From Beggiatoa sp. (GTDB lineage: Bacteria; Pseudomonadota; Gammaproteobacteria; Beggiatoales; Beggiatoaceae), in the NCBI GenBank assembly GCA_003245895.1, contig QKBZ01000257.1:1-41324 (forward strand): a stretch of 41,324 nucleotides of DNA, written 5' to 3'. Positions within the stretch are counted from its first letter, which is position 1; each line of letters begins with the position of its first letter. Under the pieces are notes generated by a model. The model saw only the letters and a list, made by a program, of their open reading frames with translations. It did not search any database and was not told the origin of the DNA. This document shows, in pieces, positions 18,435 through 35,694 of this stretch. A program made the position numbers and the translations under genes.

Positions 18435-19541
18435 TTAGGGTGAATGCGTTTCTGCCAGTGTTTTATCATAAACTGCAACTTTAGGCATAGCGACTTGTTC
18501 TGATAATGCAGCACGGGCAAATCGAAAAACACTCTCATCATTCGCTGCTTGTGTAATCGCTTGCGACAACTCAGCAATTGCATCATACCAATATCCCGCT
18601 TCTGCATAGATTTGATACTGTTGATCGCCTGCTGTGTGTGCTAACTGGCTTTTTACTGAAGCTGGTAACGCTTGATAACGTAAGGTGCCGCTGGCGACCA
18701 AATCAGCAGAACGTTCCAACTCATCAGGCACAATCACAACAAACCATTCATATTCTACTTCAGGTTTTAACTGAATGTTGTAATCTGCCAGATTTAGCGC
18801 ATGCATGCCTTTAGCGTGTTGATCGCTGTCTTCAGGTAAACCGATAGTCAGCTCTAAAAGCGGTTCTACGCTTTCTGTGCTGTTGAGGGTAAATTCAAAC
18901 TCACCTGCCCACGGAGTGGAGTTATACCAATATAATGTAGGTTGGCTTTGACTGCTTAAACCGGTGCGGCGAGGGGCTAATGGTGCAAGTAAATCAGGTA
19001 ATGTAGCAGCTTCCTCAACAACAGCTACTTCACCGCGCGATACGCCTACGCCTCTGGAGACACCACGAGAAACGCCGCGTGATACGCCTCTGGAGACACC
19101 ACGAGAAACGCCGCGTGATACCCCTCTGGACACACCGCGAGAAACACCGCGCGATACGCCTCTGGAGACACCACGAGAAACGCCGCGTGATACGCCTCTG
19201 GAGACACCGCGAGAAACGCCACGCGATACGCCTCTGGAGACACCGCGAGAAACACCGCGTGATACGCCTCTGGAGACACCGCGAGAAACACCGCGTGATA
19301 CGCCTCTGGAGACACCACGAGAAACGCCACGCGACACGCCACGAGAAACTCCACGCACGGTATCATCATTGGTCAGCCCCGCTTCACGGCGACGAATGGG
19401 ATCATCTGGATTGGGAATATGATAAGTAACTTGATAAGTTGTCTCATCGCTAATGCTGGTTTGTGCATCAGTTGCCCAAGCAGTTTGACCAGCCAGTAGT
19501 AAGCAAACACATAAGGTGCTAAATAGGTAGTACTGTTTCAT
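18435..19541 (-). CDS. DUF928 protein with GVSR tandem repeats
   Basis: A 368-residue protein with a signal peptide (core LFSTLCVCLLLAG, cleavage near AWA). About residues 63-162 are 25 perfect GVSR repeats, then GV and one more GVSR. The C-terminal half matches DUF928: PTLYWYNSTPWAGEFEFTL, then LADYNIQLKPEVEYEWFVVI and WYDAIAELSQAI. DUF928 has no known biochemistry but is found next to TPS exoproteins. It is the first gene of the operon. The repeat is strongly cationic (one Arg per four residues), an unusual insertion for a periplasmic or surface protein. Repeat number is likely variable between strains. No other frame in this block looks like a real gene. Confidence 0.85.
   Translation of the reverse strand: MKQYYLFSTLCVCLLLAGQTAWATDAQTSISDETTYQVTYHIPNPDDPIRRREAGLTNDDTVRGVSRGVSRGVSRGVSRGVSRGVSRGVSRGVSRGVSRGVSRGVSRGVSRGVSRGVSRGVSRGVSRGVSRGVSRGVSRGVSRGVSRGVSRGVSRGVSRGVSRGVGVSRGEVAVVEEAATLPDLLAPLAPRRTGLSSQSQPTLYWYNSTPWAGEFEFTLNSTESVEPLLELTIGLPEDSDQHAKGMHALNLADYNIQLKPEVEYEWFVVIVPDELERSADLVASGTLRYQALPASVKSQLAHTAGDQQYQIYAEAGYWYDAIAELSQAITQAANDESVFRFARAALSEQVAMPKVAVYDKTLAETHSP
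19053..19352 (-). repeat. Coding tandem repeat: 25 GVSR units, higher-order 36-bp period
   Basis: The protein repeats every 4 residues but the DNA repeats every 36 bp (8 copies, 19051-19338). Within each 36-mer the three GVSR units are coded differently: GGC GTA TCA CGC, then GGC GTT TCT CGT, then GGT GTC TCC AGA. So Val, Ser and Arg each use a different codon in every slot. Copies differ by a few substitutions. Confidence 0.95.
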
Positions 19542-21976: not shown

Positions 21977-22223
21977 TTCTCGTTCCCATCGTCCCGAACA
22001 CTGCCATTAAGTTAAGCGTGTTTGTAGGGTGGAATAGGCGTAAGCCGTATTCCACCATGCGGTTTATAACCTGTTTTTGCTCAGCTTTTTTGCAGAAGTC
22101 TATGGTGGAATACGCTGCGCTATTCCACCCTACAACGACAACGGAATACGCTGCGCTATTCCACCCTACAACGACAACGCTTGCTTAACTTAATGGTAGT
22201 GATCGTCCCGATGGGAACGAGAA
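21977..22223. mobile_element. Nested MITE-like element inserted into a palindromic repeat, with 10-bp direct repeats
   Basis: The outer palindrome ends are TTCTCGTTCCCATCGTCCCG (from 21977) and GATGGGAACGAGAA (to 22223). It is interrupted by 21999-22201, whose ends CACTGCCATTAAGTTAAGC and (inverted) CACTACCATTAAGTTAAGC are 18/19 identical. ATCGTCCCGA occurs on both sides (21988-21997 and 22202-22211), a perfect 10-bp target-site duplication. Inside is a third inverted pair, GTAGGGTGGAATAGGCG (22024-22056) and the reverse copy (22104-22133). No transposase is encoded, so movement would be in trans. Confidence 0.88.
22107..22178 (+). repeat. Exact 36-bp tandem duplication inside the inserted element
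   Basis: 22107-22142 and 22143-22178 are identical, each beginning GGAATACGCTGCGCTATTCC and ending CGACAAC. The right-hand palindrome of the inner pair has thus been doubled, probably by slippage. Confidence 0.9.
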
Positions 22224-32892: not shown

Positions 32893-35694
32893 CTAAATAG
32901 AACGGGCTACACTGACGCGCTCGTAAACCTCAATTTGGTCGCCGACTTTCACATCATTGTAGTTTTTCACCCCAATACCGCACTCAGTACCTGATTTCAC
33001 CTCAGATACGTCGTCTTTAAAGCGGCGCAGTGATTCTAATTCACCTTCGTAAATCACCACGTTATCGCGTAACACGCGGATCGGGTTGCTACGTTTCACC
33101 GTACCATCAACCACTAAGCAGCCTGCAACCGCGCCAAACTTAGGCGAACGGAACACATCACGCACTTCTGCCAAGCCAATGATTTCTTCGCGAATTTCAG
33201 GTGCTAACATACCACTTAAGGCTTGTTTCACTTCTTCAATCGCTTCGTAAATCACGCTGTAGTAGTGTAAATCGACGCTTTCTTCATTGATCACGCGCCG
33301 TGCACTGGCATCCGCCCGCACGTTAAAGCCGATCAGAATCGCGCCAGAGGCCACTGCTAAGTTCACGTCAGATTCGGTGATACCACCCACGCCACTGGCG
33401 ACGATGTTAACCCGTACTTCGCTGTTAGACAGTTTGCGCAAGGACTCGCTTAAGGCTTCCACCGAACCATTCACATCGGCTTTTAACACGATATTGAGGC
33501 TGGAGGTTTCGCCCGCTTCCATTTGTGAAAACACGTTTTCCAGCTTGGCTGCTTGTTGACGCGCTAACTTCACATCACGGAACTTACCTTGACGGAATAA
33601 GGCAATCTCACGCGCTTTACGCTCATCAGGCACTACAATCGCGTCATCACCGGCTAATGGGGTATCAGACAAACCTAATACTTCCACTGGAATAGAAGGC
33701 CCTGCCGAATCCACTTGCTTGCCGTGCTCGTCTAACATCGCACGCACACGACCAAACACTTGACCGGTTAATAAGATGTCGCCTTTGCGTAAAGTACCTT
33801 GTTGAATCAAGATAGAAGCAACCGCACCGCGTCCTTTATCTAAACGCGATTCAATCACTACGCCACGCGCTGCGCCGTCAAATACAGTGGTCAGTTCTAA
33901 TACTTCTGCTTGTAACAAGATAGCTTCTAATAAGTTGTCGATACCTTCGCCACTTTTCGCTGAAACGTGTACAAACATGGTATCGCCGCCCCATTCTTCG
34001 GGCACAACTTCTTTCGCAGATAATTCTTGCTTCACGCGCTCAGGGTCTGCGCCTGGCTTGTCGATTTTGTTCACCGCAACCACCATCGGCACACCGGCTG
34101 CTTTCGCATGCTGGATAGCTTCTAAGGTTTGCGGTTTCACGCCATCATCAGCCGCCACCACCAGAATCACAATATCCGTGACCTTAGCACCACGCGCACG
34201 CATTGCAGTAAACGCTTCGTGACCGGGGGTGTCTAAGAAACAGATAGAGCCGCGCTCTAATTCAACGTGATACGCACCGATATGCTGGGTAATGCCACCG
34301 GCTTCGCCTTCTACCACTTTCGCAGTACGGATATAGTCCAGCAGCGAGGTTTTACCATGGTCAACGTGACCCATAATGGTTACAACCGGCGCACGCGAAC
34401 TGTGCTCACCGTCATGATCAGGATTTAACGCTAATTCGTCTTCTAAGGCATTTTCATTCAGCAGTTTTGCTTTATGCCCCATTTCTTCCACCACAATGGC
34501 GGCAGTTTCCTGATCGATGACCTGATTAATGGTGACCATGCTGCCCATAGTGATCATAGCTTTGATCACTTCAGCCGCTTTCACCGACATTTTCTGTGCT
34601 AAATCGCCTACCGTAATGGTTTCAGGTAAGGCCACTTCACGAATGATAGGGGCTGTCGGCTTGGTAAAGCCATGTTGCTGCTCAGGTTGTTTGCCGCGTC
34701 GGCTACGCTTACGGTTACGACCGCTGCCTTGCGTTTCTTGGCGTTCAAACTTATTGCCGCGATCATCACCACCGCGTGCACTGCTTTTGCCAGATTTGCC
34801 ATCCTTACCACCACTACTGCTACTACCACCACCGGTTTTTCCACCACCGGAACGGGCTGCGGGTGCTTTCTTAGGCGGTTTGGCAACTTTGCTCAGCTTT
34901 TTATCGCTTAATTCGTCCAAATCGTCATCATCATTTAAGATGCGAGTAGCGGGTTTCGCGCGGGCAGTTGGTTGTTGCGGTTGCGCGGGTTGCACGGGTT
35001 TTTTAGTCGGGGCCGTCGCCTCGGTTTTCTTCTGCTGCGTTTTCACGTCCTTGGCATCTGATGGTTGTTTTGACTGAGAGGGCTGTTCAGCGGTCTTGGC
35101 TGTTGCTTCAGCAGAGACTTGAGCAGCATCGGCTGCGGCTTTTTGTTGTTGCACTTGTTTCGCTTCTGCTTCTAAACGGGCTTTTTCTTCAGCCGCCACT
35201 TTGGCTTCCGCCGCTAAGCGAGCTTCTTCTTCAGCGCGGGCTTTGGCTTCTGCCTCGGCGCGTGCTTTAGCTTCCACTTCTGCTTGCTGACGTTTTAATT
35301 CAGCTTCAACGTCGCGTTGGGCGGCTTCTAAGCGTTCTTTTTCGCTTTGTAAACGCTCTTCATCTGCTTTAGAAGGGCGTTTGACATAAGTACGTTTTTT
35401 GCGCACTTCAACACTCACCGTTTTTTGCTTACCTTGCGCACCGGTAGGAACACGAATTTCGCTATGTGTTTTACGCTTCAAGGTAATTTTCGTGGGTTCG
35501 TTAGTGTTGGCATTGTCAACAGCTTCTTTGCCATGCGATTGGCGCAAATGGGTTAAAAGCTGCAACTTTTCTTGATCATTAATGTTGTCATCTGCTGCTT
35601 TCGCAGACAGACCGGCTTCTCCTAGTTGTGCCAGCAGACGTTCTATCGGAATACCGACCGTATCGGCGAATTGTCTTACAGTTACTTGTGCCAT
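32893..35694 (-). CDS. infB: Translation initiation factor IF-2
   Basis: A 933-residue GTPase that delivers initiator tRNA to the 30S subunit and promotes subunit joining. The first 50 residues are an IF2_N domain ([21 protein letters not shown]), followed by a long Lys/Glu/Ala coiled region, a second IF2_N domain near 390, and the GTPase with GHVDHGKTS (about 440), DTPGHEAF (about 487) and NKID (about 541). Domains II-IV complete it. The true start is ATG 35694 (MAQVTV); the frame is open a further 27 codons upstream but those residues are not family sequence. An in-frame internal start giving IF2-beta is possible, not shown. It follows nusA after a 176-nt gap. Confidence 0.96.

Follow-up and report, generated by a model that had tools for sequence, protein, structure and literature searches.

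A (GVSR)25 array in a Beggiatoa DUF928 protein marks a clade whose peptide repeats stay uniform whilst their codons vary

Introduction

Why should a bacterial protein contain 25 identical copies of a tetrapeptide that are spelled in different ways in the DNA encoding them? This question is raised by a gene in a 41,324-nucleotide stretch of a Beggiatoa sp. genome (contig QKBZ01000257.1; hereafter the window), the product of which carries an unbroken run of GVSR units ahead of a DUF928 domain (PF06051). The literature on DUF928 is almost absent; PMC5587647 mentions a CHASE2 neighbour and cites the response of Synechocystis sll1891 to acid stress. We found no published description of the array-bearing sub-clade to which the window protein belongs.

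Results

The initial annotation had counted 25 GVSR copies, with a period of four residues in the protein and 36 nucleotides in the DNA, and both this count (the repeat number as read in the draft assembly) and the limits of the array (Table 1) proved exact. The proposed expansion of a 36-mer also agrees with the TRF output, in which period 36 dominates (8.2 copies, 91% match, score 483) and period 12 is far weaker (66% match, score 124). The three 12-mers of the consensus 36-mer (GGT-GTC-TCC-AGA, GGC-GTA-TCA-CGC and GGC-GTT-TCT-CGT) differ in their Gly, Val, Ser and Arg codons. The rotating triplets of codons that had been described are therefore true of the consensus but not of every single unit, where GTG, TCG, GGA and GGG also occur and the Arg of the third unit is either CGC or CGT. 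In all, the 25 units comprise 11 different 12-mers with no nonsynonymous difference between them. Long open frames on the opposite strand and in other frames arise because the repeat length is a multiple of three. Within its own genome, a GVSR peptide query matched this array only. Across 43 genomes of the order, a (GVSR)5 coding pattern was found in 11, solely at known DUF928 array genes, and its reversed form, which served as the control, gave no match in the same 43 genomes; these results together indicate that the array is not a product of chance.

Table 1. Features of the array-bearing gene and its downstream neighbour, in window coordinates
Feature	Position	Strand	Basis
Array-bearing DUF928 gene, 368 aa	18435..19541	(-)	ORF; Pfam PF06051, E=6.3e-27; clade placement
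Putative Sec signal peptide, residues 1-23, MKQYYLFSTLCVCLLLAGQTAWA	19473..19541	(-)	Read from sequence; inferred cleavage site
RRREAG motif, residues 50-55, conserved just 5' of the array	19377..19394	(-)	Alignment
(GVSR)x25 array, residues 64-163, 36-nt higher-order repeat of three synonymous 12-mers	19053..19352	(-)	
Imperfect terminal copy GVGVSRG (additional GV), closing the array	19032..19052	(-)	
DUF928 domain, residues 167-352	18486..19043 (about; start also given as 18483)	(-)	Pfam
Downstream neighbour, 849 aa, TPS secretion domain PF05860	15876..18425	(-)	Pfam

The protein scores 95 bits against PF06051 (gathering cut-off 26), covering positions 4-176 of the 184 in the profile. It has no TPS domain itself, PF05860 being confined to the neighbouring gene product, and is thus not a TpsA exoprotein. 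Nor does it have the Gly at every third residue of collagen-like Gly-X-Y sequences, given that its array has period four; a period of three was seen only in relatives with GVR, GLR or GMR units. The DUF928 domain is acidic (-13, pI 4.4) and the array carries a charge of +25. Nearly every member of the array-bearing clade has a hydrophobic N-terminal stretch, and the protein is probably exported. A single-sequence AlphaFold model had a mean pLDDT of 36.9, too low for a structural reading, and the two matches from a PDB profile search were dismissed as they lay solely in the RG-rich low-complexity part.

A gap of 9 nt separates the array gene from the TPS-domain gene on the same strand, and the two are probably co-transcribed; the next gene upstream is divergent and, by inspection, presumably mutL. 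In three relatives (L085, L087 and L093) the array-bearing DUF928 gene, one gene for a protein of ~1000 aa and a TPS gene stand in succession, and in L094 and L105-L108 a CHAT-TPR gene follows the array gene. On cyanobacterial plasmids, DUF928 adjoins CHASE2, CHAT and a filamentous-hemagglutinin-type protein. Neighbourhoods are poorly conserved, and many array genes adjoin unrelated genes.

The intervening protein of the three relatives (L085:5189-8005, L087:9739-12738 and L093:5242-8220; ~940-1000 aa) gave no convincing Pfam match, is 42% identical between L087 and L093 and 43% between L085 and L093, and in L085 bears its own TQPPITGTPTGG-type repeat. Two GLSR-array genes are each followed directly by a gene whose conserved product weakly matches von Willebrand A (L098:9433-11679 and L099:7785-9989; 60% identical to each other). 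Three genomes (G005, G033 and G034) have 28, 31 and 39 TPS-domain matches, but each has only one or two matches to ShlB-type transporters.

Whilst a cationic insert of this kind had been considered unusual in DUF928, comparison with relatives reverses that view. We searched 58 genomes, sampled at one per species, and found DUF928 genes in 27 of them, at one to six per genome. A maximum-likelihood tree of 81 DUF928 domains places all long-array proteins in one clade (support 100/99), which takes up 29 of the 81 rows and spans 20 genomes from 15 genera, all in one family. The array is what characterises this clade, standing at the same position in 28 of the 28 members with a readable N-terminus (the 29th, L047, is truncated by a contig end). 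The window gene falls inside the clade as sister to L022. Other branches of DUF928 have shorter GMR, GLR, GSR or GPSR runs. A Cryobacterium match from the genome-contig scan for relatives was dismissed as low complexity once its frame was read.

The initial annotation had also suggested looking for four-residue repeats in other DUF928 proteins, and these are indeed present in the clade. GVSR is the commonest unit, alongside GISR (L025), GLSR (L029 and L071) and GVAR (L058 and L009); GVR occurs in L021 and L050, and longer units take the form of GGFDTR (L053 and L054), RGRFAFKAN (L070), ~19 residues (L049) and GRAxxxFKRKV (L073 and L081). Almost all of these arrays are pure. The supposed selection for the exact GVSR peptide is therefore not supported as a general rule. 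In L062 and L068 a GLSR block precedes a GVSR block, as if turnover had been caught midway. At this orthologous position unit lengths are 3, 4, 6, 9, 12 or ~19 residues, for which reason a fixed helical or strand register was rejected and a disordered segment without fixed register appears more apt. This spread of lengths would be compatible with disorder of the kind expected in Arg-rich condensate-forming or elastin/resilin-like repeats. Regularly spaced Arg and Gly are what all units have in common. The majority of arrays bear a strong positive charge, and the DUF928 domain tends to be acidic. The GGFDTR arrays have a net charge of 0, from which it follows that charge alone cannot be the selected property, that the idea of an essential cationic nature is not supported and that binding to a polyanion would not be the whole story.

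The array stands where paralogues without an array have a short linker, RRVGAGTRG or RRVGAGSRG, and RRREAG and the SRG of the array align with the linkers of these paralogues, with R51, G55, R71 and G72 invariant; the counterpart of RRREAG is the RRVGGGTRG-type linker of array-less DUF928 proteins. A single short Arg-Gly motif of the RRxGGGTRG type lies between signal peptide and domain in many DUF928 proteins, cyanobacterial ones as well as those of this family, and on cyanobacterial plasmids linkers of the same type read GAPTNRTGGASRRG, PPRRQGGGTRG, APRDRKGAGTRG and SAAGSRGG. The window protein shares this Arg-Gly linker, which we observe here as a recurrent feature of the family, and we infer that amplification of the linker motif gave rise to the array. 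The residues immediately N-terminal to the GVR and GGFDTR arrays are still VSR, and their retention suggests VSRG as the ancestral unit. A DUF928 protein from a Planktothrix agardhii plasmid (L155, 3917-4762) has an N-terminal GGGTRG linker and a second copy, GREQGGGTR, at its C-terminal end, hinting that the motif may be functional in itself.

Counting variants from the first to the last unit that was exact and in register, we found 11 synonymous and 0 nonsynonymous variants in the window array, and 259 synonymous against 10 nonsynonymous distinct codon variants over 25 arrays (omega ~0.02; 0.018), where a synonymous share of ~32% would be expected. The nominal P of 4e-114 is not a true probability, given that units of one array share ancestry, but the direction is uniform, and nonsynonymous variants are entirely absent from 20 of the 25 arrays. 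An earlier count with a residue-restricting pattern gave 264:20 (omega 0.035). The suggestion of strong selection for peptide uniformity, to be gauged by dN/dS within units, is thus borne out. In L071, 26 GLSR units use 20 spellings with their amino acids unchanged. Both L053 and L054 retain GGFDTR, yet most of their codons for it differ (chiefly AGA, GAC and ACC versus CGN, GAT and ACT), which argues that this peptide outlived near-complete turnover of its DNA. Purity stops at the edges, with degenerate copies at the C-terminal end of the array in L039, L048 and L055. Judged from these codon patterns, purifying selection is what keeps the peptide units uniform while units switch between lineages.

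The rotation of spellings appears to have a simpler basis than had been implied. Super-periods of two units occur in L025, L042, L046, L021 and L050, of three in the window array, L022, L031, L055, L058 and L069, and of four in L029 (24, 36 and 48 nt), and none is seen in L039 or L043. Between the units of the window 36-mer, 36% of bases differ compared with 31% expected from random synonymous coding (P=0.38), and when 23 arrays were pooled, using the codon usage of each genome, unit differences were as random (Stouffer z=0.8). Over-dispersion of spellings, of the kind that selection against slippage would produce, was rejected on this result, and the rotation, offered as a signal, fits random synonymous coding. 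Spellings inherited across genera were likewise rejected; spellings common to two arrays exceeded random only inside the window's own subclade (z=3.0). The rotation is explained, on our reading of the repeats, by old, synonymously saturated units that were then copied as multi-unit blocks.

In TCN-type arrays (L001, L014, L022, L023, L055, L068, L069 and L071), AGA Arg codons mostly follow TCC; TCC-AGA occurs in 8 arrays and TCT-AGA in 0, which may reflect either shared ancestry, as a confounder, or codon context.

Discussion

We propose that a VSRG-like core of the linker was amplified in tandem within one orthologous clade, and that unequal exchange or slippage has since renewed its DNA in blocks of several units (24, 36 or 48 nt), which would yield higher-order repeats with several spellings. 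Purifying selection would remove nearly all amino-acid changes, with the occasional takeover of a whole array by a new unit (V to L or I, S to A, a 4-mer to a 3-mer, or wholly new units). We consider this evolutionary part of the model very likely. As to function, the array may form an exported, disordered and multivalent Arg-Gly tether of variable length, by which the DUF928 domain, acidic in most cases, would be attached through avidity to a repetitive partner, either a surface polymer or a TPS or CHAT partner. This is a tentative suggestion, possible rather than probable, and for evolution and tether taken together we see the chances as evenly balanced.

Several other readings of these arrays need to be weighed. 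Tandem arrays homogenise spontaneously, and the purity seen here could reflect recent copying by slippage without selection, as the nearly identical adjacent units of L039 and L043 might suggest. However, the super-repeat units are saturated at synonymous positions while the peptide is identical, the 26 units of L071 have gathered their many spellings without an amino-acid change, and the ratio of synonymous to nonsynonymous variants lies far from the neutral expectation, even though the events are not fully independent and the P value is overstated; we regard a neutral origin as very unlikely. Selection might instead act on the DNA, with alternating spellings that suppress 12-nt slippage, tRNA depletion or mRNA structure. 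Adjacent identity is indeed below random in L042 (0.48 vs 0.66), L025 (0.55 vs 0.67) and L021 (0.57 vs 0.71), but these low lag-1 values follow from repeated copying of one two-unit block, and L039, L043 and L048 do not alternate. Given that the differences between consensus super-units do not exceed those of random synonymous coding, selection on the DNA itself is unnecessary, and we find it decidedly improbable. That the repeat number or order was produced by short-read assembly is extremely unlikely: whilst this is a draft genome of 451 contigs and short reads cope poorly with 36-mers repeated over 300 bp, like arrays occur in independent assemblies of 20 genomes, some on contigs of >1 Mb (G018 and G009), and the scattered unit-specific variants would tend to collapse in an artefact.

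The main functional alternative to a tether is a peptide precursor, in which an Arg-specific protease would cut the array into identical short signal or inhibitor peptides, a possible candidate for this protease being the caspase-like CHAT protein whose gene adjoins several array genes. Fungal pheromone precursors provide a model for such cleaved repeated peptides. The units are uniform within each array, differ between lineages and each contain a basic residue, and the protein is of a secreted type with an adjoining CHAT-TPR gene in some relatives, all of which would suit a precursor. Against this, GVSR is common to many genera and would make a poor specific signal, four residues are very short, and most array genes have no CHAT neighbour. 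On balance, a precursor role is unlikely, and its fuller form, in which secreted precursors would each release tens of lineage-dependent Arg peptides, cut for example by a CHAT protein and acting as signals, is distinctly so.

Returning to amplification and turnover under purifying selection, the arrays can be set beside better known repeats. NANP arrays are also built of synonymously diverse 12-mers. In the Plasmodium circumsporozoite protein the NANP tetrapeptide is repeated in tandem, in ~36-43 copies of varying number (PMC6186114). Both are tandem tetrapeptides, but NANP belongs to a eukaryotic surface antigen with no sequence relation to GVSR and no comparable CHAT or TPS setting, and the likeness to DUF928 arrays is one of pattern only. 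The same is true of polyubiquitin, whose tandem identical units have prompted debate between concerted and birth-and-death evolution (PMC10457151); its units are folded, 76 aa long and cleaved apart, whereas those of the DUF928 arrays are short, apparently disordered and of a sequence that changes between genera. Persi, Wolf and Koonin (2016) found that protein repeats diverge fast within proteins and are conserved between orthologues (PMC5120217). The DUF928 arrays share with the repeats surveyed there the periodic, near-identical copies suited to within-protein dN/dS, but reverse the general pattern, in that copies are constrained within a protein and the unit changes between orthologues. 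Cyanobacterial and gammaproteobacterial DUF928 proteins have in common the domain, the Arg-Gly linker and the TPS, CHAT and CHASE2 neighbours, and within DUF928 at large the long pure array marks a sub-clade only. These roughly 25 natural, independently respelled arrays make it possible to test cleanly which property of short-unit repeats is visible to selection, and offer a first handle on DUF928, sited as it is beside TPS, CHAT and CHASE2 genes in cyanobacteria and in this gammaproteobacterial family.

Other repeats in the window

At 22107-22179 of the window, a 36-bp element with an internal inverted repeat, GGAATACGCTGCGCTATTCCACCCTACAACGACAAC, is present twice in tandem. The element is dispersed through the genome, with at least 43 matches among those listed and 202 first-look candidates, and resembles intergenic repeats of the REP or MITE kind. 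Imperfect 42- and 24-bp tandem repeats at 35158-35274 lie in the Ala/Glu/Lys/Arg-rich linker of a gene that we take to encode translation initiation factor IF-2.
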